Source of the DNA: Polaromonas sp. YR568 | GTDB lineage: Bacteria; Pseudomonadota; Gammaproteobacteria; Burkholderiales; Burkholderiaceae_C | Direction of reading: 5' to 3' | Length of the DNA stretch: 64,000 bases | Assembly (NCBI GenBank): GCA_945878995.1 | Contig: CAMCUN010000005.1 | Location: forward strand, 20,032 to 84,031 | Shown here: one piece after another, positions 121 through 46,410 of the stretch | Layout: each line of letters starts with the position of its first letter | Numbering within the stretch: the first letter of the stretch is position 1 | Notes under the pieces: model-generated | What the model saw: the letters and a program-made list of their open reading frames with translations, nothing else | Databases searched by the model: none | Told to the model about the DNA's origin: nothing | Translations under genes and position numbers: made by a program

Positions 121-308
121 ACACCCAAGCCCACATGGCCTCGTACGACGACTTTTACGAGGCCTTGCTCAACGCCCACCAAGATCTGAGCACCGAAGAC
201 AGCCACGCGCTCAACGCCCGCCTGGTGCTGCTGCTGTCCAACCACATCGGCGACATGGCCGTGCTCACCGAAGCGCTGCGCTTGGCACGCGGCTCTTCTC
301 CTCTGTAG
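114..308 (+). CDS. DUF2783 domain protein
   Basis: A 64-residue protein starting MLNTQAHMASYDDFYEALL. It matches the small DUF2783 family: a DDFYEAL helix, a D-L-S-x-E-x-S-HALNARLVLLL core, then NHIGD and an ALRLAR tail. The function of the family is unknown; it usually sits directly behind an FAD monooxygenase, as here. Its ATG overlaps the upstream TGA, implying translational coupling. The ORF track starts upstream at 24, but that stretch is the shadow of the monooxygenase end. The TAG stop at 306-308 lies inside the first REP-like repeat unit, so the last codon or two may be repeat-derived. Confidence 0.8.
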   Translation: MLNTQAHMASYDDFYEALLNAHQDLSTEDSHALNARLVLLLSNHIGDMAVLTEALRLARGSSPL

Positions 309-1062
309 GAGCCAGCCTGCTGGCGATGGTTTGACTGAGGTGATGCCTGTGGTCCGGCACGATTCGCTTGCAGGCAAGCTCCTACAAATTCAAGACGCTG
401 GTTCCCTTGTAGGAGCCGGCCTGCCGGCGAATGTTGGGCTGAGGTGATGCTTGTGATGCGGCACGATTCGCTTGCAGGCTTGTCTCCCACAAAGACAAAA
501 CGCGGGTCTTCTCCCCTGTAGGAGCCGGCCTGCCGGCGAATGTTGGGCTGAGGTGATGCTTGTGGAGCGGCACGATTCGCTTGCAGGCAAGCTCCTACAA
601 AAGATAAGGCGCTGGTTCCCTTGTAGGAGCCGGCCTGCCGGCGAATGTTTGACTGAGGTGATGCTTGTGGTGCGGCACGATTCGTTGGCATGCTTGTCTC
701 CTACAAAGATAAAGCGGGTCTTCTCCCCTGTAGGAGCCGGCCTGCCGGCGAATGTTGGGCTGCGGTGATGCTTGCGTTGCGGCACGATTCGCTTGCAGGC
801 AAGCTCCTACAAAAGATAAGGCGCTGGTTCCCTTGTAGGAGCCGGCTTGCCGGCGAATGTTTGACTGAGGTGATGCTTACGTTGCGGCACGATTCGCTTG
901 CAGGCAAGCTCCTACAAAAGATAAGGCGCTGGTTCCCTTGTAGGAGCCGGCCTGCCGGCGAATGTTTGACTGAGGTGATGCTTGTGGTGCGTCACGATTC
1001 GCTGGCAGGCTTGTCTCCTACAAATTCAAACAGGTTCGCGCAGGAACCGGCCTGCCGACTAT
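304..1062. repeat. REP-like tandem array 1 (7 units, period about 105 bp)
   Basis: Seven near-identical units begin with TGTAGGAGCC at 304, 408, 517, 622, 729, 834 and 939. A decayed half unit lies at about 1037-1060. In each unit a left arm TGTAGGAGCCGGCCTGCCGG is followed by a spacer containing TGAGGTGATG, then an inverted right arm ATTCGCTTGCAGGCAAGC plus TCCTACA. Each arm also contains its own small palindrome. The layout resembles bacterial interspersed mosaic elements built from REP pairs. All ORFs called here, such as 155..691 minus and 472..768 plus, are translations of the repeat. The array fills the gap between DUF2783 and ETF-QO. Confidence 0.93.
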
Positions 1063-4189: not shown

Positions 4190-4705
4190 TGTCCGGCACG
4201 ATTCGCTTGCAGGCTTGTCTCCTACAAAGACAAGGCGGTGCCTTCCCTGTAGGAGCCGGCCTGCCGGCGAATGTTCGCCTGAGGTGATGGCTGTGGACCG
4301 GCACGATTCGCTTGCAGGCAAGCTCCTACAAAGTCAAGATGCAGCTCTGTTGTAGGAGCCGGCCTGCCGGCGAATGTTCGCCTGAGGTGATGCCCGTTGC
4401 CCGCTGCGATTCGCTTGCAGGCAAGCTCCTACAAATACAAGGCGGTGCCTTCCCTGTAGGAGCCGGCCTGCAGGCGAATGTTCGCCTGAGGAGATGGCTG
4501 TAGACCGCCACGAATCGCTTGCAGGCAAGCTCCTACAAAGTCAAGATGCAGCTCTGTTGTAGGAGCCGGCCTGCCGGCGAATGTTCGCCTGAGGAGATGG
4601 CTGTGGACCGCTGCGATTCGCTTGCAGGCTTGTCTCCTACAAAGACAAGATGCAGCTCTCTTGTAGGAGCCGGCCTGCCGGAGATTTTTGCCCGGAGGTG
4701 ATGCC
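4190..4705. repeat. REP-like tandem array 2 (5 left arms, period about 103 bp)
   Basis: Same element as array 1. An orphan right arm (GATTCGCTTGCAGGCTTGTC) opens the array. Left arms TGTAGGAGCC follow at 4248, 4351, 4455, 4558 and 4662, the last one truncated and decaying after about 4700. Within-array differences are mostly in the spacer (TGGCTGTGGACC and similar) and in alternate forms of the right arm (GGCAAGCTCC or GGCTTGTCTCC). The array fills the gap between the thioesterase and the converging PF10118 gene. No gene or promoter is seen in it. Confidence 0.92.
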
Positions 4706-6341: not shown

Positions 6342-8393
6342 CTAGAGCACTGGCGCTTGCCAAATCAAATTGCCGTTGTTCACCAGCTCTGCCAAGGTCT
6401 TGTTGATACCGTCCAAGATGATGATCTGGGTGGATGAACTCGCCAAATCATTCAGGTTGGGGGTGGCGCTGGCGTTCAACAGTCCCTGAGCGTTGATGTA
6501 AAGGCGCGTTTCCTCAATCTCAGGGTCGTTGTCCGTGTTCACGGGAATGACTTTTAAATAGTTGGCCAGGTTGGTGCCGTCCAGTGTGGGGCCGCGACCG
6601 AGCAGGTCTTTCAGATCTATCACGCCTTTGGTGCCAGTGTCTTGGCCGAGGTAGAAATTTTTCACCACATCGGTGTTGGTGGCGCCATTGGTGCCTGCAT
6701 TGGCCTTGATCCAATAGAAAACGTCTGCAGCAGGTGTGCCTTGCGCAATCAGCACCTGAGAGCCAGCGCGGTCAACGAAATAGTCGGGCTCTGTGCTGTC
6801 CAGGCCAGGTTGGGTGCTTTGCCCGGGCAGCCAAGCATCTTCAATCACTTTTTCACGGTCAATTTCCAAGACCTGGTACACGGTGGACTTGTTCCCTTTG
6901 GTGTCTTGCAGGTTAAAGATCAAGCTGTAATAACCGTCAGCTAGCTTGGTCAATATCTCCGAGGCAACGCTCACCGATGTGACCCCACTCAGGGAGCCCA
7001 GGTCTTTGCCCAGCAAGGTCAATCTAGAGAGGTTGCTGTCCAACTCGCCACCACTGTAGGTGAAGGGCACTTGCAAAGGACCTGTTTCATTCACCAAGGG
7101 ATTGTTGGCACCCCCAGGGTTGGTCACCGCCAAGCTGGGCTGACGAAGGTCAAAAGGCGTGAGCACCGTGGCCGCTTGCGAGGGCTGGGTCAGGTCATTG
7201 CCCGCAATGTCTTGCAAAGTTTTGCCGACCGTGCTCCATGTCAAGGTTTGAGTTCCCGTGGTGCCGGCTGCAGGAAGGTCGGTGAGGCTGTATTCGGTGT
7301 CGCTGACCTTGGTCAAAACGCTGCTGGCGGGCAGGCTGCTGCCGTTGAGGTTGAAATCCGCGGCCAGCAATGCGCGAGCAGGTTTCTCGCTCAAGGTGAT
7401 TTTGTATTTGAAGCCCGCCTGGCTCTCGCTGATGTTAAGGATGTTGTCCGCCTTGCCGCCCACGCCTGTTTCCAGCGCTGAAAGGTTGCTAGAAAAAGCG
7501 GCCGTCATGGGAGTGGCGTCCACGGTGATTTTGAATTCTGTGCTGATGGGCAAACCCTGGGCGTTGGTGCCGTTCACTTTGATTTGATAGTCCTTGTCAC
7601 TGGCCAAGGGGGACTTTGGGGCCCATTCCCATCGGCCCAAGGCGTTGACCAGCACTTCTTCTGGGCTGCCGTTGTCTAGCGTGATAAATATCTTGCTGTT
7701 CGGCTGGGCGAAGCCGCCAATTTTGGGTTGGGTTTTTCGGGTGATGTTGTCCGTGGGGCTCACGCCTGTGTCCTCTCCTGGGAGCAGGGCTGCACTAAAG
7801 CCTGAGGCCGGAATGGCCTCCTCGCCTGAATTGCCACCTCCTGCAACTGCGCCTCCCCCGCCACCACCGCCACCACCCAAAGCCGCCAAACCCGCCACAC
7901 CCGCTGCAGCCAAGCCTACGGGACCCAGCGCAAAACCCGCCACGCCCACCAATGGCGCGGCAGCCACGGCCATGGCCGACCCCGAGCTCACCACAAAGAC
8001 CGGACCGCCCAGCACTTGTGAGGCGCTTGCGCCCTCGGGCAAGAGGCTGAGTTGGTCGAATTCTTGGGCGGTGTTGGGAATGAAGCGGTAGGTGCTGGTG
8101 TCTTCGGCCACGCCCACGATGGTGCCTGGGGCAACTTCGAAAAAGTTCTCCAAAATCAGGTCAGGCGCTTCGCCGGGGCGCTGCACATCGAGTTGAAGGT
8201 GCAGGTTTTTGCCCTGGCGCCTAGAGAAAATTTGCTGCGGCGCTTTGTCGCTGGCTTTGTCGCTCAGGGTGTAGACGGCATTGGGCTGGGCCTGGAGCCG
8301 CACAGGCTCGGTTTTGTTGCCGGGTATCAGCAGGACCTCAGCGGCCTTGGCGTCAATGGCCCTGTCAACGGTGACTTGGTAGTTTTTGGTCAT
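6342..8393 (-). CDS. Type I-secreted Ig-like surface protein (adhesin paralog A)
   Basis: A 683-residue protein. Residues 1-130 resemble the N-terminal prefix of BapA/LapF-type adhesins, with YTLSDKASDKAPQQI and DLILENFFEVAPG. A hydrophobic Ala/Gly/Val stretch (about 131-172) runs into nine glycines (173-181). Then come an Ig-like domain (ITLDNGSPEEV), one Big-type repeat and a C-terminal VFYWIKANAG...TDVVKNF...IDLKDLLG pattern typical of type I secretion targets of the VC_A0849 subclass. It should be exported by an ABC/HlyD/TolC channel; none is adjacent. The gene lies 9 bp behind an OmpA-domain gene with no clear ribosome site of its own, so coupled translation is likely. Paralog of 10090..13254. 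Confidence 0.85.
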   Translation of the reverse strand: MTKNYQVTVDRAIDAKAAEVLLIPGNKTEPVRLQAQPNAVYTLSDKASDKAPQQIFSRRQGKNLHLQLDVQRPGEAPDLILENFFEVAPGTIVGVAEDTSTYRFIPNTAQEFDQLSLLPEGASASQVLGGPVFVVSSGSAMAVAAAPLVGVAGFALGPVGLAAAGVAGLAALGGGGGGGGGAVAGGGNSGEEAIPASGFSAALLPGEDTGVSPTDNITRKTQPKIGGFAQPNSKIFITLDNGSPEEVLVNALGRWEWAPKSPLASDKDYQIKVNGTNAQGLPISTEFKITVDATPMTAAFSSNLSALETGVGGKADNILNISESQAGFKYKITLSEKPARALLAADFNLNGSSLPASSVLTKVSDTEYSLTDLPAAGTTGTQTLTWSTVGKTLQDIAGNDLTQPSQAATVLTPFDLRQPSLAVTNPGGANNPLVNETGPLQVPFTYSGGELDSNLSRLTLLGKDLGSLSGVTSVSVASEILTKLADGYYSLIFNLQDTKGNKSTVYQVLEIDREKVIEDAWLPGQSTQPGLDSTEPDYFVDRAGSQVLIAQGTPAADVFYWIKANAGTNGATNTDVVKNFYLGQDTGTKGVIDLKDLLGRGPTLDGTNLANYLKVIPVNTDNDPEIEETRLYINAQGLLNASATPNLNDLASSSTQIIILDGINKTLAELVNNGNLIWQAPVL

Positions 8394-8402
8394 GGGTTGG
8401 CG

Positions 8403-9545
8403 TCAGTTTTTTGCGGGGTTGACAGTGATTTCCACGCGGCGGTTGGGCCGGTTGCAGTTGAGCCTGGCGTCTCGGGTTTTGGCCACTTGCTGGCAGTCTT
8501 TGACGAGCAGCTCCGAGCTGCCCAGGCCTTCAGCCCGCAGTTGTCTGGCGGGCAGTCCGCTGTTGACAAGAATGCGGCTGACCGTTTGGGCGCGCTCCAA
8601 GGACAAACGCCGGTTCAAAGCCACCGAGCCCATGGGGTCGGTGTGGCCCTGAACCACGATCACTTGGCCGGGCTTGAGCTGCTCCTTGATGCGCTTGCCC
8701 AGGCGCACGATTTGTGTCTGCCCTTGTTCAGACAGGTGCTGGGGCTTGGAGCCGGAAAAGGTAAAAAGCATTTCGGCCGACAAGGTGTATTTGGAGACGG
8801 CCTGCTCGGGGGGGGGACGGGAAACCACAGGGGCCGGCACAGGAACAGGCACAGGCATGGGCACCACCGCAGGCAATGGCACTTGCATGGGCAATGGCAA
8901 TAGCAGGGGCAATGGCAGTGGCAATGGCAATGGCACGGGCACGGGCACGGGCACGGGCACGGGCACGGGCACAGCTGCAGGCGTGCTGGCGGCTGCAAGC
9001 ACGGGCTCGGGCTTCATCACGGGGAGGGCTTGGCAATCTTGCGCGGCTGGCACGCGCGAGACGGCATGCGACTGGCGCCGCAGCTCAGGCAGCAGGGCCT
9101 GGGCTTGCTGGTTGCTCAGGTTCGATTGCGTTGCCGCACCCGCTTTGGTTTGGATCAACACGTACACAGTTTGGCGGGGCAGGCTGGCCAGGTTGAAGGG
9201 GCTTTTGGCCGATGGCCCCGTTTTGCCTTGGCTGGCCAACTCAACCCACCGGTTGCCGGGGCAGACCTCGGTTTCAGAAAAAGCGCCAGGCAGCACCGTG
9301 GTGTGAAAGCGTCCTTCTACCCACACGTCCACTGGAGCACCTGTGTCTTGCATGGACCGTGGTCGCAAAAAGAGCAGGCGTGCGAGGTCTTGGCTGACCT
9401 GGGCGCGGGGTCGTTCATTGAGGTTGGCAAAGGTTTGCCAGGGAGGCGGGGGAGCGGTGGACTGCGAATACGCCGCCACAGAAAAAAACAAGGTGGCGGG
9501 CAAGCCAATCAGGCGTGTGAGGGCGAGCAGTGTGGTGGATTGCAT
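8403..9545 (-). CDS. OmpA-domain protein with Val-Pro-rich linker (paralog A)
   Basis: A 380-residue exported protein. A signal peptide (MQSTTLLALTRLIGLPATLF, cleaved near AYSQS) is followed by an uncharacterised domain of about 150 residues with two cysteines (EVCPG, QDCQ). Next is a linker of alternating Val-Pro and Leu-Pro, then a C-terminal OmpA peptidoglycan-binding domain (VVQGHTDPMGS, LSLERAQTV, GLGSSELLV, NRRVEI). I chose the ATG at 9545 because the signal peptide begins there. The linker is encoded by a hexanucleotide repeat. The N-terminal half, linker type and downstream adhesin are shared with the paralog at 13262..14380. It probably sits in the periplasm or outer membrane and assists the secreted partner; that role is inference. 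Confidence 0.88.
   Translation of the reverse strand: MQSTTLLALTRLIGLPATLFFSVAAYSQSTAPPPPWQTFANLNERPRAQVSQDLARLLFLRPRSMQDTGAPVDVWVEGRFHTTVLPGAFSETEVCPGNRWVELASQGKTGPSAKSPFNLASLPRQTVYVLIQTKAGAATQSNLSNQQAQALLPELRRQSHAVSRVPAAQDCQALPVMKPEPVLAAASTPAAVPVPVPVPVPVPVPLPLPLPLPLLLPLPMQVPLPAVVPMPVPVPVPAPVVSRPPPEQAVSKYTLSAEMLFTFSGSKPQHLSEQGQTQIVRLGKRIKEQLKPGQVIVVQGHTDPMGSVALNRRLSLERAQTVSRILVNSGLPARQLRAEGLGSSELLVKDCQQVAKTRDARLNCNRPNRRVEITVNPAKN
8932..8973. repeat. Hexanucleotide microsatellite (GGCACG)n in the OmpA gene
   Basis: Six perfect GGCACG units and one imperfect GGCACA lie inside the Val-Pro linker; on the coding strand each unit is CGTGCC, giving the Val-Pro dipeptide. Related degenerate hexamers (GGCAAT, GGCACA) extend the low-complexity tract to about 8830-8975. 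Slippage would change linker length in steps of two residues without breaking the frame. Confidence 0.85.
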
Positions 9546-10089
9546 GGGGTTCGGTAGATCGGTTCCTAGAGGGCCAATCGCCGAAGTGCAAATGCTCAAC
9601 GGCGCCATCTGTCTAATTTAATTCGAACCTTTTTATTACTTTGTTAAAAATCATTGTTTTCTAAAAATAAATGATGAATTAACAAACTTTAAAAATCTAA
9701 TCGTCTTTATTTGTAAATTAATAGACGTGGAAATGCATTGAAAGGAAATAAAAATATATTAATAATTAAATGAGCTGTGTTTGTGTGTCGCTCGGGTGGG
9801 ATCTGCCATTCATCAGGCCACCCAGGCGGCATGGGGCGTCGAGTGATCCACCAACTGCGGCCCTGGCTGTGCTGCATTGAGCGAGTCCTGTAGGACGCCG
9901 TCTACAGCCACTGGGTAGAGTGCAAATCAACAAGCTGCGCTGCACAAGTCCGCTGACAAGGCACTTTTGCGGGCACTCTAAAGCGACAGATGGCGATGGC
10001 GCCTCGATGCAAGGCGTGCCTTGGGCAGCGCAGGCCTGTGCATCAGGCACTGCGCGTCCCGGCTGTGGTCAAGCAGCTGTCAAGCTGTC
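9546..10089. other. AT-rich promoter region and spacer between the two adhesin cassettes
   Basis: No gene is supported. The stretch 9610-9775 is strikingly AT-rich for this genome and lies just upstream of the minus-strand OmpA gene, so it probably holds its promoter, possibly with nucleoid-protein silencing. The 9776-10089 part is GC-rich spacer downstream of the second adhesin and contains one imperfect hairpin (CTGTAG/CTACAG, 9888-9907) without a T-run. The ORF at 9766..10050 minus lacks any recognisable feature. Confidence 0.5.
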
Positions 10090-13000
10090 TCAGCCGAACA
10101 AGGGCTGGCTCAGCGTGGTGTTCCAGTCGATGTTGAGCGCCGCAGCCAGCGCCACCAAGTTGGAGGCGGCTGGCAGAGCCAAGTTGCTCAGCACAATGAG
10201 CTGGTCCGCCTGAGCGGCATCGCCTGACCCTGTGAATATCCCGGCTCGGCTGATGGCCAGTTGCACGGCATCGGGCAGCGTGTCGGTGTCGACGTTGGTG
10301 TCGATGGCGCTGATCATGAGGTACTTTTCCAGGCTCGCCGCAGTCACGCCGCCTAGCAAATCTCGAAGATTGAGCCTGTCGCCCTGAGGTGCGCCTGCTA
10401 AAGAAAAGTCAGTAATGGTGTCCACTTCGGGGGCGCCCGCTTTTCCCGGGTCCCGAGAAAGCCAGACAAAAGTATCCGCAGACCCGTTGCCTTGAAAACT
10501 CTGGCTCCCGCTCGTGTTGATAAAAAGGTTGTCTGCACCGTCGCCAATGGGCGTTGTTCCCTCCCAAAGCTTGGGCAAGAAACCTCGGTTTAACTTGAAG
10601 ATTTGCAGCGTGTCTGTGCTGTTGCCTGCGGTGTCGGTGCTTGTGAGTTTGAAGGTGTAGTAGCCGTTGGCCACATTGGATAAACCGGTTTGTGTCAGTT
10701 CAAACTGCCAGGCCGCACTGGCATTTGAAGCCCGCGAGAGTGTTTTGCTGCTGCCTAAAAAGCTCGCAGTCACGCTGCTCAAGTCGGTGTCTGTGGTGTT
10801 GGCGGTGATGGGGAAGTTGGCGTTGAAAGGAAGGTCCTTGATGGACTCGCTGAACAAGCTGACGACAGGGGCTTTGTTGTCAAATGAAACTTCAGGGCTG
10901 TTGGCGGTGGCCAGAGGGTTACCTGCGGCATCGGTCAAGGGGTTGGCAGCACTGGCCTGCACGCTGAGCTTGAGCACCCCAGTGTTGGTGGCCGCCAGGC
11001 TGGGGCTGGGCTGCACCACAGCGGTGTATTCGGTGGCATTGACTTTGGTCAAACTGCCCAAGCTGCCCCCCGTGCCTACAGTCAAGTCCCCTGTGCCCAG
11101 GTCTCTTTGGGGGGCGCTGTCAAGAGTGATTCTGAAGGTCACGCCACCGCCCGCCAACTCAGCGATGCTCAGCACCGAGTTGTTCAAGGTGTCGATTGCA
11201 GCGAGGTTGGACGTGATGCTGGTGACGCTCAAGGCCTTGGTGTCATAGCTGATGTCGGCACTGCTGGCGCCGGGGGCGGGGTTGCCCGAGGCATCGGTCA
11301 GTGGGGTGGCAGGCTGCAAGCTCAGCTTGAGCTTGCCTGAGTTGGTGTCTGCAGTGGGCTGGGCCCTGACGGTGTAGACCGTCTCGCTGACTTTGCTGAG
11401 GCTGCCTGTGACCAAGCTGCCACCCGCAAAAACCAAATCTGCCGCCACGATGTTGCGGGTGGGTGCGTTGTCAAAGGTGAGCGTGAAGGTCACGCCATTG
11501 GTGGTCGGGCCGCTGGCCAGTTCTGCGTTGTTCAGCACCCCGTCCTTGACCAGGCCCAGGTCCAGCGCCTCTCGGTTGTTGGTGATCACCACGCCAATGG
11601 CCTTGGTGTCGTAGTTGATGAGGGGGCTGACGGTGGTGCCCAGTGGGTTGAGCGCGACATCTGACAAGGTGGTGCCCGTGGCAGCCCGCAAGCTCAGTTG
11701 CAGTTGACCGCCGTTGGTGTCGGCCGTGGGTTGGGCCTTGACGGTGTATTGCGTGTCGCTCACCCGCGTCAGGCTGTTGGCCAAGGTGCCGCCCGTCAGC
11801 ACCAAGTCTGCCAGGGTAAGCGGGCGGTTGGGGATGCTGTCGAGCGTGATGGCGAAGGTCACGCCATTGGTGAGTTCGGTGCTGTTGAGGATGCTGTCTT
11901 TGGGGCCTTGGTCCAGGTCAGCCAGGTTGCTGGTGATGGTCGCCGTTGGCGCCTTGTTGTCGTAATTGAAGGTTTTGGGGGTGACCGTGCCCAGAGGGTT
12001 GCCAGCGTCATCTGTCAGCGCAGGGCTTGGGTTGGTTTTGAGGCTGACCACCACGGTGCCGGTGTCGCTGGTGGGGGAGGGCGGTGGCTGCACAGCGACG
12101 GCATATTCCGTGGGACTGATTTTTTTGAAGCTCCCAGGCTTGATGCTGCCTCCCGTGACACTCAAGTCCTCGACCGTCAAGTCCCTGATGGGGGTGTCGT
12201 TGAGCTTGAGGGTCACGGGAACCTCTGGCGAAGCGCCGCCCAATTCTGCGCTGTTGAGCACTCCGTCTTTGAGCGCCGCATCCAGGCTGGCGGGCGTGCC
12301 AATTTGAACGCCCAAGGGGCTGGTGTCTATGAGCAGCGTGACAAGCTTCTCAGCGGGCGTGCCAGTCGGGTCTTTGGGGTCTGTGGCCTTGATCTTGACG
12401 GTGTGTTCACCGTCGGACAAGTTGGCCGGCGGCGTCCAGGTCCAACTGCCATCTGCATTGACGGGGCTTATTTCTTGCTCAGTTCCGTTGTCCAGCGTCA
12501 CAAACACCTTGTTACCAGGCGCGGTTTTGCCCTCAATGATGGGCTTGGGTTTGTTGGTTTGTGTGTCTGTGGTGAGGCCAGTGTTGTCTGCAGGTTTGAG
12601 CTCGGTCTCCAGCGGCACTTTGGTGACTGGAGTTGGATTGACTGTGGTGCCTGTTCCACCGCCACTCTCGGTTCCTGTGTTCCCCCCTGTGCCTGTGTCC
12701 GCTCCCCCGCCAGATCCGCCACCGCCGCCTCCGCCTAAAGCGGCAGCGCCCGCCAAAGCCGCAGCGCCTGCGCCCAGTCCGCCCAGCCCCGCCACCGCAC
12801 CGCCCACGCCCGCCACACCCAGCAGCGGTGCGGCCACAAAAAACGGCGAGCCTCCCAATACTTGGGTGATGCTGGCGCCGTCGATCAGCTCACCGATTTG
12901 GTGCTGCGGGAGGGCGGTGTTGGGGATGAACCGGTAGCTGATGTCGTCTTCAGCAATGCCTGTCAACGGGCCTGGAGCTTGCTCGAAATAGTTCTCCAAA

Positions 13001-13254
13001 ATCAGATCGGCGCTGTCGTCGGGTCGGTAGTCGTCGATTTGGATGAGCAGGTCATTGCCCCGGCGCTTGGTGTGAATTTGCTGGGGGGCTTTGCCCGTGC
13101 TCTGGTTGCTCAGGGTGTAGGTGGCGCCGCTTTGAGCCAACAGGCGTGTGGCTTGGGCCGAGTTGGCGGGGATGGCTTGCACCACGTCGGCCGTTTTGCC
13201 ACCCTCTTTGGCGGGGGCATTGGAGGAGATGCTGATTTGGTAGGTATTGCTCAT
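10090..13254 (-). CDS. Large Ig-repeat type I-secreted adhesin (paralog B)
   Basis: A 1054-residue protein with the same plan as the 683-residue paralog. A BapA/LapF-like prefix carries GKAPQQIHTKRRG, DLILENYFEQAPG and SYRFIPNTA. An Ala/Gly-rich hydrophobic stretch (about 137-172) runs into a Gly/Thr/Ser-rich hinge, followed by one Ig-like domain (FVTLDNGTEQEI). Then come four tandem Big-type repeats of about 115-120 residues, each ending in L-x-D-x-x-x-NP and a YD/FDNKA boundary, one further Ig-like domain, and a C-terminal type I secretion target (ADTFVWLSRD, DTITDFSL, LNLRDLLG). It starts 7 bp after an OmpA-domain gene and has no strong ribosome site. Predicted cell-surface or released adhesin; ligand unknown. 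Confidence 0.88.
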   Translation of the reverse strand: MSNTYQISISSNAPAKEGGKTADVVQAIPANSAQATRLLAQSGATYTLSNQSTGKAPQQIHTKRRGNDLLIQIDDYRPDDSADLILENYFEQAPGPLTGIAEDDISYRFIPNTALPQHQIGELIDGASITQVLGGSPFFVAAPLLGVAGVGGAVAGLGGLGAGAAALAGAAALGGGGGGGSGGGADTGTGGNTGTESGGGTGTTVNPTPVTKVPLETELKPADNTGLTTDTQTNKPKPIIEGKTAPGNKVFVTLDNGTEQEISPVNADGSWTWTPPANLSDGEHTVKIKATDPKDPTGTPAEKLVTLLIDTSPLGVQIGTPASLDAALKDGVLNSAELGGASPEVPVTLKLNDTPIRDLTVEDLSVTGGSIKPGSFKKISPTEYAVAVQPPPSPTSDTGTVVVSLKTNPSPALTDDAGNPLGTVTPKTFNYDNKAPTATITSNLADLDQGPKDSILNSTELTNGVTFAITLDSIPNRPLTLADLVLTGGTLANSLTRVSDTQYTVKAQPTADTNGGQLQLSLRAATGTTLSDVALNPLGTTVSPLINYDTKAIGVVITNNREALDLGLVKDGVLNNAELASGPTTNGVTFTLTFDNAPTRNIVAADLVFAGGSLVTGSLSKVSETVYTVRAQPTADTNSGKLKLSLQPATPLTDASGNPAPGASSADISYDTKALSVTSITSNLAAIDTLNNSVLSIAELAGGGVTFRITLDSAPQRDLGTGDLTVGTGGSLGSLTKVNATEYTAVVQPSPSLAATNTGVLKLSVQASAANPLTDAAGNPLATANSPEVSFDNKAPVVSLFSESIKDLPFNANFPITANTTDTDLSSVTASFLGSSKTLSRASNASAAWQFELTQTGLSNVANGYYTFKLTSTDTAGNSTDTLQIFKLNRGFLPKLWEGTTPIGDGADNLFINTSGSQSFQGNGSADTFVWLSRDPGKAGAPEVDTITDFSLAGAPQGDRLNLRDLLGGVTAASLEKYLMISAIDTNVDTDTLPDAVQLAISRAGIFTGSGDAAQADQLIVLSNLALPAASNLVALAAALNIDWNTTLSQPLFG

Positions 13255-13261
13255 GCTGGTG

Positions 13262-14380
13262 TCAATTTTTTGAAGGAGCGACTGTGATTTCCACGCGGCG
13301 GTTGGGCAGATCGCAGGCGATCCGCTCGCCTCGCTTGGGGTGCAAGGCGGCGCAGTCCTTGACCAGCAGTTCCGAGCTGCCCAGGCCTTGGGCGCGCAGT
13401 TGTCGGGCAGGAATGCCTTGGCTGCGCAAAATGCTTAAAACAGTGTCTGCGCGTTCGGCCGACAAGCGTTGATTCAGCCCAGCCGAGCCTGTGGGGTCGG
13501 TGTGGCCTTGCACGAGCACCACATCGCTGGCTTGGAGGTCCTCTTGGAGTTGCTTGGCCAGGGCCATGATTTCTCTGCGGCCCCGCTCGGCCAGGTGCTT
13601 GGGTTGTGAACCGCCAAAGGCAAACAGCATTTCAGCCGACAAGGTGTAGCGCTTGGCAGGCTTGGGCTCTGGGGGCGGCACAGGGGCCGGGGGAGGTGGT
13701 GGAGGCGGTGGAAGCGGTGGAAGCGGTGGAGGTGGTGGAGGTGGTGGAGGCGGTGGAGGCGGTGGAAGTGGTGCAGGCGGTGGAAGTGGTGCAGGCGGTG
13801 TAGGCGGGGGAGGTGGGGCTGTTGGAGCGAGCTGGGCGATCTGTGCCGGGGCTTCAGGGGCTGGTGTGGGGCAACTCAGTGGCGGCTGCACCCGCGAGAC
13901 GGCGTGGGATTGGCGGCGCAGGTCTTTGAGCAGGACATTGGCCTCCTCAGCGTTCAGGTCTGAGCGCATGGGGCTCTTTGCGCTGGGCGCTTGCACCACC
14001 ACGTAGGTGGTCTGCTCAAGTTGGGCCAGAACGGGCAGGCGCGGTCTAAAGTTCAGACCGCTGGTGCCCTGGCCCGCCATTTCAAGGACTCGGGAGCCAG
14101 GGCAGACTTGGGCCTCGGCAAAGCCTCCGGGCAAGAGCGAAGTGAGGTAGCGCCCGTCAATCAGAATGTCAGCCGGGAAGGTGGCGTCTTGGGGGCTGGG
14201 TGGGCGCAGCAAGACGAGTTTGGCCAGACCTTGTGGCACGGTGGTGCTGGGCCTTTCGCTTTGACTTGCAAAAGTATTCCAGGTGGCGCTGGCCGCACTC
14301 GGTTGGGCACCAGCGTTCAAGCTCGCAAGGGCAGTGATGGCCAATGTGGCCAAGCATGTTCTGAGGGTGGTGGCGTGCAT
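13262..14380 (-). CDS. OmpA-domain protein with polyproline linker (paralog B)
   Basis: A 372-residue exported protein. A signal peptide (MHATTLRTCLATLAITALAS, cleaved near GAQPSA) precedes an N-terminal domain of about 150 residues homologous to that of 8403..9545 (shared LLPGGFAEAQVCPGSR and RRQSHAVSR). A very long proline-rich linker runs from about residue 185 to 240, followed by an OmpA C-terminal domain with VLVQGHTDPTGS and NRRVEITV. The linker chemistry differs from the paralog (Pro runs here, Val-Pro there) while both flanking domains are kept, so linker length and rigidity may matter. First gene of a bicistron with the 1054-residue adhesin. Confidence 0.88.
   Translation of the reverse strand: MHATTLRTCLATLAITALASLNAGAQPSAASATWNTFASQSERPSTTVPQGLAKLVLLRPPSPQDATFPADILIDGRYLTSLLPGGFAEAQVCPGSRVLEMAGQGTSGLNFRPRLPVLAQLEQTTYVVVQAPSAKSPMRSDLNAEEANVLLKDLRRQSHAVSRVQPPLSCPTPAPEAPAQIAQLAPTAPPPPPTPPAPLPPPAPLPPPPPPPPPPPPPPLPPLPPPPPPPPAPVPPPEPKPAKRYTLSAEMLFAFGGSQPKHLAERGRREIMALAKQLQEDLQASDVVLVQGHTDPTGSAGLNQRLSAERADTVLSILRSQGIPARQLRAQGLGSSELLVKDCAALHPKRGERIACDLPNRRVEITVAPSKN
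13688..13820. repeat. GGTGGA/GGTGGC low-complexity tract encoding the polyproline linker
   Basis: Irregular trinucleotide and hexanucleotide repeats of GGTGGA, GGTGGC and GGAAGT on the plus strand translate to Pro/Leu runs on the minus strand. The tract is in frame within the OmpA paralog and could slip. The long ORFs on the opposite strand here are poly-Gly/Val/Glu shadows. Confidence 0.8.
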
Positions 14381-45462: not shown

Positions 45463-46143
45463 ATGCATCCCAGCGAACTTCCTGATGAAATCACCGAGCG
45501 CATGCGGGTGCGCCGGGGCCGTTTGCACCTCTTCGAGCGCCTGGACGTTAGCCGCACAGCGCTTGTGGTGATAGACATGCAAAACGCTTTTTTGCGCCCG
45601 GGCGCGCCCTCGGAAACGCCCATGGCACGCGCCATCGTGCCGCAAATCAACCGCCTAGCGCAGGCCGTGCGGGCCGGCGGTGGCGTGGTGGCTTTTGCGC
45701 AGGGCTCCTTCCAGCCCAGCGGGCCCGAGGCCTGGCCACTGTTTTTTGAGCACATGGTCAACCCGGCCTTCTCGGCTGCCATCTTGCAGGCCCTGACCCC
45801 TGGCCACCCTGACCATGAGCTGTGGCCGGAACTGGACGTGCAGGATGGTGACGTGCGCGTACGTAAAAAGCGTTACAGCGCTTTTTTCCCCGGTGCCTGC
45901 AGCCTGCCCGAGCAACTGCGAGAGCGGGGGGTGGACACGGTCATCATCACCGGCACCCTGACCAATGTGTGCTGCGAGGCCTCGGCCCGCGACGCCATGA
46001 TGGGCGACTTCAAGACCGTGATGGTCAGCGACGCCAATGCAGCCCGCTCGGACGCCGAGCACCTGGCCGCCCTGGTGACGCTGGTGCAGTTTTTCGCCGA
46101 TGTCCGCAGCACCGACGAAGTGCTGGCCATGCTTTCCCCGTAG
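45463..46143 (+). CDS. Cysteine hydrolase, isochorismatase family
   Basis: A 226-residue isochorismatase-like hydrolase. The likely triad is Asp in LVVIDMQNAF, Lys in RKKRYSAFF, and Cys in TLTNVCCEASARDA, where a cis-peptide motif also fits. Family members hydrolyse amides such as N-carbamoylsarcosine, nicotinamide or ureidoacrylate; substrate unknown here. The final codons CTT TCC CCG TAG run into REP-like array 3: the stop codon is the TAG of the repeat's GTAGGAGCC, so the natural C-terminus may have been set by repeat insertion. Confidence 0.88.
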   Translation: MHPSELPDEITERMRVRRGRLHLFERLDVSRTALVVIDMQNAFLRPGAPSETPMARAIVPQINRLAQAVRAGGGVVAFAQGSFQPSGPEAWPLFFEHMVNPAFSAAILQALTPGHPDHELWPELDVQDGDVRVRKKRYSAFFPGACSLPEQLRERGVDTVIITGTLTNVCCEASARDAMMGDFKTVMVSDANAARSDAEHLAALVTLVQFFADVRSTDEVLAMLSP

Positions 46144-46410
46144 GAGCCGGCCTGCCGGCGAATGTTCGCCTGAGGAGATGCCTGTTGTCCGCCACCATTC
46201 GCTTGCAGGCAAGCTCCTACAAAGACAAGATGGAGCTTCCCTGTATGAGCCGGCCTGCCGGCGAATCTTGGCGTGAGGTGATGCCCGTTGCCCGCTGCGA
46301 TTCGCTTGCAGGCAAGCTCCTACAAAGACAAGATGGAGCTCCCCTGTAGGAGCCGGCCTGCCGGCGAATGTTCGCCTGAGGTGATGCCCTTGCCCGGCAC
46401 GAATCGTCGG
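46140..46410. repeat. REP-like tandem array 3 (3 units)
   Basis: Left arms begin at 46140 (GTAGGAGCCGG, first T lost), 46242 (TGTATGAGCC, one substitution) and 46345, with right arms GCAGGCAAGCTCCTACA between them, period about 103 bp. The last unit decays after 46400 (GGCACGAATCGTCGGCAG). It is the same family as arrays 1 and 2, lying between the cysteine hydrolase and the converging ThDP enzyme. It supplies the stop codon of the hydrolase. Confidence 0.92.

Follow-up and report, generated by a model that had tools for sequence, protein, structure and literature searches.

Linked and unlinked pairing of DUF2846-like OmpA-domain proteins with type I-secreted Ig-repeat adhesins points to a candidate periplasmic anchor

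We examined two tandem minus-strand cassettes in a 64,000-nucleotide stretch of the Polaromonas sp. YR568 genome (GCA_945878995.1, contig CAMCUN010000005.1; contig 5 of genome G000), hereafter the window. Each cassette, at 14380–10090 and 9608–6342, consists of a gene for an OmpA-domain protein (the partner) followed by a gene for an adhesin. The partner has a signal peptide, a domain of ~125 residues (the N-domain), a Pro-rich linker, and an OmpA domain, and the adhesin has immunoglobulin (Ig)-like repeats and a type I secretion system (T1SS) C-terminal domain. Related pairs recur in beta- and gammaproteobacteria, and partner and adhesin very probably form one functional unit. We favor, with a probability of roughly 0.55, a reading in which the partner holds the adhesin on the cell; retention of the adhesin by its N-terminal prefix, direct binding of the two proteins, and load bearing by the partner are what we infer under this reading.

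Pairing of partner and adhesin genes with and without linkage

Profiles of the partner N-domain were used to find members with an OmpA domain in beta- and gammaproteobacteria, and the neighborhoods of the partner genes were scanned with local profiles for adhesins sharing the prefix of the window proteins (prefix adhesins). The fixed pairing proposed in an earlier note on this DNA was borne out by this search, which yielded 42 adjacent same-strand pairs, including two from the metagenome-assembled genome (MAG) L030 that are nearly identical to those of the window. The partner precedes the adhesin in 40 pairs, with a spacing of 6–135 bp or, in L031, a 4 bp overlap; the order is reversed in the other two (G043 and a Pantoea plasmid). 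The partner of one pair, found on a Providencia plasmid, lacks the OmpA domain.

Partners not adjacent to an adhesin were found in genus g438 (G873 and G875; in G874, of the same genus, the contig ends 200 bp past the partner gene) and on the Pantoea plasmid, where a second partner-like gene directly follows the first partner. The Pantoea plasmid reads adhesin, partner, second partner-like gene (with a weak OmpA match), T1SS ABC, HlyD, and TolC, and the Providencia plasmid reads N-domain lipoprotein, prefix adhesin, TolC, ABC, and HlyD. The second partner-like gene of Pantoea sp. SOD02 (plasmid L078, 20902–21771) is annotated as "hypothetical protein" and encodes a degenerate OmpA domain.

Co-occurrence was surveyed in two groups of genomes. 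Of the 83 genomes in the family of G328, which is probably Neisseriaceae, 27 encode a full partner; a close prefix adhesin is encoded by those 27 and no others, leaving 56 with neither gene. Copy numbers match as well, at 29 partner and 29 adhesin genes. G839 and G854 each have two partners and two adhesins, the second G839 adhesin being a short open reading frame of 181 aa. Counted as having neither are G833, with a partner fragment at a contig end, and G820, with a weak match to a short DUF2846 protein. The weak matches in G820, G127, G393, G660, and G777 are ordinary DUF2846 proteins that lack an OmpA domain, with no neighboring prefix adhesin seen, and we excluded them from the partner count. 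The second group, the order of G582 (possibly Cardiobacteriales), is represented by 32 genomes; seven of them have both genes and 25 have neither.

A close prefix adhesin was defined by E < 1e-29, a line drawn after the lists had been seen and within a gap in them (the family list resumes at ~1e-22 and the order list at ~1e-24); more distant prefix adhesins beyond this line occur both with and without partners. No genome of the 83-genome family or the 32-genome order has a full partner without a close prefix adhesin, which rules out, for these two groups, a generic OmpA protein that may stand beside anything. Fisher tests give 2e-22 for the family and 3e-7 for the order, values that ignore shared descent and are not readable as probabilities.

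The two genes also occur together when they are far apart. In genus g438 they are separated by 250–500 kb: in G873, the partner is at 2,083,081 and its adhesin counterpart at 1,832,544, and the corresponding positions in G875 are 1,597,701 and 2,096,007. Such unlinked co-occurrence indicates that their co-presence is not mere linkage, and it is stronger evidence of partnership than adjacency. The earlier note had suggested a functional partnership, to be doubted if the genes proved usually unlinked or if the partner had unrelated neighbors. We found 42 adjacent pairs and co-occurrence in 27 of 27 and 7 of 7 genomes, and linkage and co-occurrence together strongly support the partnership.

At the chromosomal site of the two cassettes, relatives of the window genome hold just one, so that the cassette of the window is a doubled one. 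These relatives are congener G013 (contig L032) and the betaproteobacterial MAG L031; after the cassette, both have a carboxymuconolactone-decarboxylase-like gene, as does the window, and G013 also shares with the window a CoA-transferase gene before it. Both cassettes are present in L030, and this independent, near-identical MAG, together with the single cassettes at the same site in relatives, leads us to reject an assembly artifact. The partner tree groups both window partners (support 0.99), and the tree of the short prefix places adhesin 1 with single-copy relatives (0.87). A single recent tandem duplication may be the origin of both cassettes, a point on which the two trees disagree. We give little weight to the mirror-tree correlation between partner and adhesin (r 0.87), since species descent would by itself increase it.

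Architecture of the two cassettes

The features of the two cassettes are as follows.

13262–14380, minus strand: partner protein 1 (OmpA1), 372 aa, with a Sec-type signal peptide and without a lipobox
13871–14248, minus strand: N-domain of partner 1, a putative divergent DUF2846 domain with a modeled beta-rich fold
13652–13870, minus strand: Pro-rich linker of partner 1, ~72 residues
13271–13651, minus strand: OmpA (PF00691) domain of partner 1, with D295 and R310 of the presumed peptidoglycan-binding site invariant in 13 homologues
10090–13254, minus strand: adhesin 1, 1054 aa
12850–13254, minus strand: prefix domain of adhesin 1 (KAPQQI...DLILEN...YRFIPNTA), with no Pfam or NCBIfam model
12715–12840, minus strand: hydrophobic Gly/Ala-rich segment of adhesin 1, after the prefix
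10585–12606, minus strand: bacterial Ig-like repeats of adhesin 1 (Big_13, Big_12)
10168–10422, minus strand: T1SS C-terminal target domain of adhesin 1 (TIGR03661)
9609–10089, minus strand: gap between the cassettes, 481 bp, AT-rich right before cassette 2
8403–9608, minus strand: partner protein 2 (OmpA2), 401 aa, with a likely true start at 9545
9033–9407, minus strand: N-domain of partner 2
8793–9032, minus strand: Pro/Val/Leu-rich linker of partner 2, ~79 residues
8415–8792, minus strand: OmpA domain of partner 2
6342–8393, minus strand: adhesin 2, 683 aa
8004–8393, minus strand: prefix domain of adhesin 2
7869–7985, minus strand: hydrophobic segment of adhesin 2
6366–6671, minus strand: T1SS C-terminal target domain of adhesin 2 (TIGR03661)

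The four open reading frames lie in the order and with the spacing first described for them, 7 bp between OmpA1 and adhesin 1 and 9 bp between OmpA2 and adhesin 2. Cassette 1 is likewise preceded by an AT-rich stretch, similar to that before cassette 2, and these upstream stretches make a separate promoter for each cassette probable. OmpA2 likely starts at the internal ATG at 9545 rather than at 9608, because the resulting N-terminus (MQSTTLL...) matches the first ATG of the L030 orthologue.

Both partners score above the gathering threshold of PF00691 (49 and 54 bits vs 27.2). The Asp and Arg of this domain (D295 and R310), which from general knowledge of OmpA we take to be the peptidoglycan-binding residues, are invariant among 13 aligned homologues. 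OmpA1 and OmpA2 are 61% identical across the OmpA domain and 43% across the N-domain; the domain homology behind the sequence motifs said to be shared by the two partners is clear, but OmpA2 reads VLPGAF and not LLPGAF.

The N-domain, previously regarded as novel, appears by profile comparison to be a divergent DUF2846 domain. The DUF2846 profile (PF11008) scores the window N-domains below threshold (13.4–15.7 bits vs 34.3) and matches nine of 13 N-domain homologues at E ≤ 0.1, with a best value of 5.8e-10. Its structure model, built from a six-sequence alignment, is beta-rich with seven strands and one helix (predicted local distance difference test score (pLDDT) 77.5, predicted template-modeling score (pTM) 0.70). 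The top structural match of the model is the N-domain of AlgF (E 5e-4, template-modeling scores 0.43/0.69), with a weaker resemblance to TssJ; the predicted likeness to AlgF is one of fold only. Searches of the Protein Data Bank gave no significant sequence relatives of the N-domain or of the adhesin prefix.

Beyond the N-domain, the partners vary. The linker is 41–79 residues long in the closest relatives of the window partners, all of which lack a lipobox, and 4–15 residues long in other partners. A lipobox is present in most partners of the G328 family, as called by a simple pattern whose calls in L123 and L124 look doubtful. The partner on the Providencia alcalifaciens plasmid, 169 aa with a lipobox, consists of the N-domain alone beside the same kind of adhesin. 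The constant part of the partner is therefore the N-domain and not the OmpA domain, which had been thought essential to the pair. Among the ordinary DUF2846 proteins, that of G127 is a lipoprotein without an OmpA domain encoded one gene from an ABC exporter (L038, 1717–4941), and this locus may reflect a wider link between DUF2846 and exporters.

The two adhesins are 37% identical across 437 aa starting at residue 1, and their comparison recovers the motifs KAPQQI, DLILEN, and YRFIPNTA reported as common to both. Both adhesins exceed the cut-off of Big_13, and adhesin 1 also exceeds that of Big_12. The T1SS C-terminus attributed to them is confirmed in each by TIGR03661 (T1SS_VCA0849; 38.9 bits in adhesin 1 and 24.2 in adhesin 2, cut-off 17.6). 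The prefix (~130 aa) has no convincing match to an NCBIfam or Pfam model in either window adhesin, and the label "BapA/LapF prefix" given to it thus finds no library support for these proteins; the homologous adhesin of G043 passes the Blp2 model (789 bits). A hydrophobic stretch follows the prefix in nearly all of the adhesins, with a 19-residue mean of 1.3–2.2 in the close group. In most cases, no other part of the sequence examined is more hydrophobic than this stretch; window adhesin 1 has a comparable one elsewhere.

Prefix adhesins are also found at other loci. The window genome encodes another giant adhesin of the same prefix group on contig 88 (L017, 1–7358), which has Ala-rich repeats and exceeds 2400 aa before being cut at the contig end, and on contig 104 (L064, 3–4859) a large protein that matches the prefix weakly (E 5e-6) and has no partner beside its gene. 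Congener G013 has two more prefix adhesins away from its cassette (L018 and L019), both running off contig ends. In G582, five prefix adhesins with near-identical prefixes and unlike lengths are spread over ~28 kb around a single partner gene (L059, 7139–19770 and beyond), three of them within L059, an arrangement that suggests exchange or alternative use of adhesins.

Proposed anchoring and its alternatives

Contig 16 of the window genome carries neighboring genes for a LapB-like ABC protein, HlyD, and TolC. At 643 bits, the ABC protein stays below the 693-bit cut-off of TIGR03375, and we infer that this T1SS exports the window adhesins. The LapG peptidase (PF06035) was detected in none of seven carrier genomes by a search whose positive control matched in Caulobacter. 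Since LapG was not found in these carriers, proteolytic release of the LapA type is unlikely here, and we rejected Lap-type release of the adhesins on this ground.

In the anchoring that we propose, each cassette would encode an Ig-repeat adhesin exported by a T1SS, together with a periplasmic anchor dedicated to it. The adhesin would exit C-terminus first through a LapB/TolC-type T1SS encoded elsewhere, presumably that of contig 16, so that the prefix and the hydrophobic segment come last and could remain on the inner face of the outer membrane or within the TolC exit. The DUF2846-like N-domain of the partner would then bind the prefix, or a complex of prefix and TolC, in the periplasm, and its OmpA domain would bind peptidoglycan, such that a pull on the adhesin would load the cell wall. 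Partners of other lineages might have a lipid anchor in addition to, or in place of, this link to the wall.

This retaining role is favored by the invariant Asp and Arg of the OmpA domain and by published analogues. The earlier note knew of no described system of this composition; functional analogues exist in SO4321/BpfA (PMC4523816), TpgA/AtaA (PMC13082670), and SiiA/SiiE (PMC12607715). TpgA of Acinetobacter sp. Tol 5 is likewise periplasmic with an OmpA-type peptidoglycan-binding domain, and its N-terminal domain contacts one specific adhesin, AtaA, strengthens its anchoring, and roughly doubles its modeled extraction force (PMC13082670). Unlike the adhesins described here, AtaA is a trimeric (type Vc) autotransporter. 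The TpgA model NF047726 scores 69 bits (vs 350) on the window partner and aligns only over profile positions 146–267 of 268, its OmpA part; membership in the TpgA family is ruled out, and the N-domains are unrelated by this test.

In Shewanella oneidensis, the OmpA-family gene SO4321 belongs to the locus of the T1SS adhesin BpfA; its loss affects biofilm formation, and the protein has been proposed to aid BpfA localization (PMC4523816). The likeness is one of OmpA family and locus: unlike in the cassettes, SO4321 has T1SS genes on one side and bpfG on the other, and its locus includes regulators of the LapG/LapD type. SiiA, encoded in Salmonella SPI-4 with the adhesin SiiE, is a peptidoglycan-binding accessory of a T1SS Ig-repeat adhesin that affects SiiE-dependent invasion and has been implicated in retention or release, but it is an inner-membrane protein of the Mot/Exb/Tol family that forms a proton channel with SiiB (PMC12607715). 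LapA of Pseudomonas fluorescens would resemble the adhesins studied here in being held by its N-terminus and uses a LapB-type ABC transporter; it differs in having its own retention module and in being released by LapG. Acinetobacter BAP and BLP2 are likewise adhesins with Ig repeats and have an N-terminal motif in common; the bap gene of A. baumannii is not linked to secretion genes, and the text consulted describes no dedicated OmpA-domain partner (PMC4647330). A pair of a DUF2846–OmpA protein and a prefix adhesin was not found described in the open-licence papers searched.

Other roles for the partner have to be weighed against retention. It could be a secretion accessory, with the finished adhesin not being held: via TolC or the adaptor it would assemble or position the T1SS at the peptidoglycan, or it would make a local opening in the wall. 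This role is favored by the T1SS genes found immediately after the pair in Pantoea and Providencia and ~8 kb away from it in G043, and by the existence of peptidoglycan-binding T1SS accessory proteins, SiiA among them (PMC12607715). We nevertheless consider this role unlikely: the window genome keeps its partners beside the adhesins, with the T1SS genes on a different contig, partner copy number tracks that of the adhesins (two of each in the window, L030, G839, and G854), and SiiA is needed for SiiE function but not for its secretion (PMC12607715).

We give similarly little credence to the idea that the N-domain acts in the periplasm as a chaperone or plug, either for the prefix or for the emptied TolC channel, and that the OmpA domain or lipid would merely localize it. 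The constancy of the N-domain, its occurrence alone as a lipoprotein in Providencia, and the likeness of its model to AlgF and, weakly, TssJ, both of them envelope accessory modules, fit this idea, but the OmpA domain is present in almost every other member and keeps its Asp and Arg in all 13 aligned. That the genes are merely co-regulated neighbors in a biofilm operon, without direct partnership, is very improbable. Their reversed order in one clade and the group adhesins without a neighboring partner would agree with it, yet presence and absence match in two lineages, unlinked cases included, and the doublings are parallel.

Several observations weigh against retention by a wall-bound partner. 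The OmpA domain is missing from the Providencia partner and only weakly matched in the second Pantoea copy, indicating that peptidoglycan anchoring is not universal. Distant prefix adhesins occur without such a partner nearby, which indicates that the prefix can function partner-free, and the contig 88 adhesin has no partner in the sequence read. In addition, the structure model of the prefix is of low confidence (pLDDT 57).

A broader proposal is more tentative than retention itself, namely that in beta- and gammaproteobacteria DUF2846–OmpA proteins and the prefix could constitute a general mooring for T1SS Ig adhesins that does not depend on LapG. Under this proposal, the N-domain would be a prefix-specific receptor to which different lineages attach different anchors, be it an OmpA domain on a long linker, a lipoprotein anchor plus OmpA, or a lipoprotein anchor alone. 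How T1SS adhesins without a LapA-type module are kept on the cell is unsettled, and retention or anchoring is called unresolved in the literature on SiiE (PMC12607715) and BapP; the pair offers a defined candidate anchor that is co-present with its adhesin in many species. Its natural variants (soluble with a long linker, lipoprotein with OmpA, and lipoprotein without OmpA) form a ready domain-swap series, and retention by the partner would, if true, give a function to one branch of DUF2846.

Repeat arrays elsewhere in the window

Away from the cassettes, a repeat finder detected tandem arrays at window positions 304–1024, 4193–4703, and 46134–46400, with a unit of ~104 bp that contains TGTAGGAGCCGGCCTGCCGGCGAA and its inverted counterpart. 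A sequence search with a guessed REP motif gave no match. The arrays, apparently intergenic, look like palindromic arrays of the REP/BIME type.

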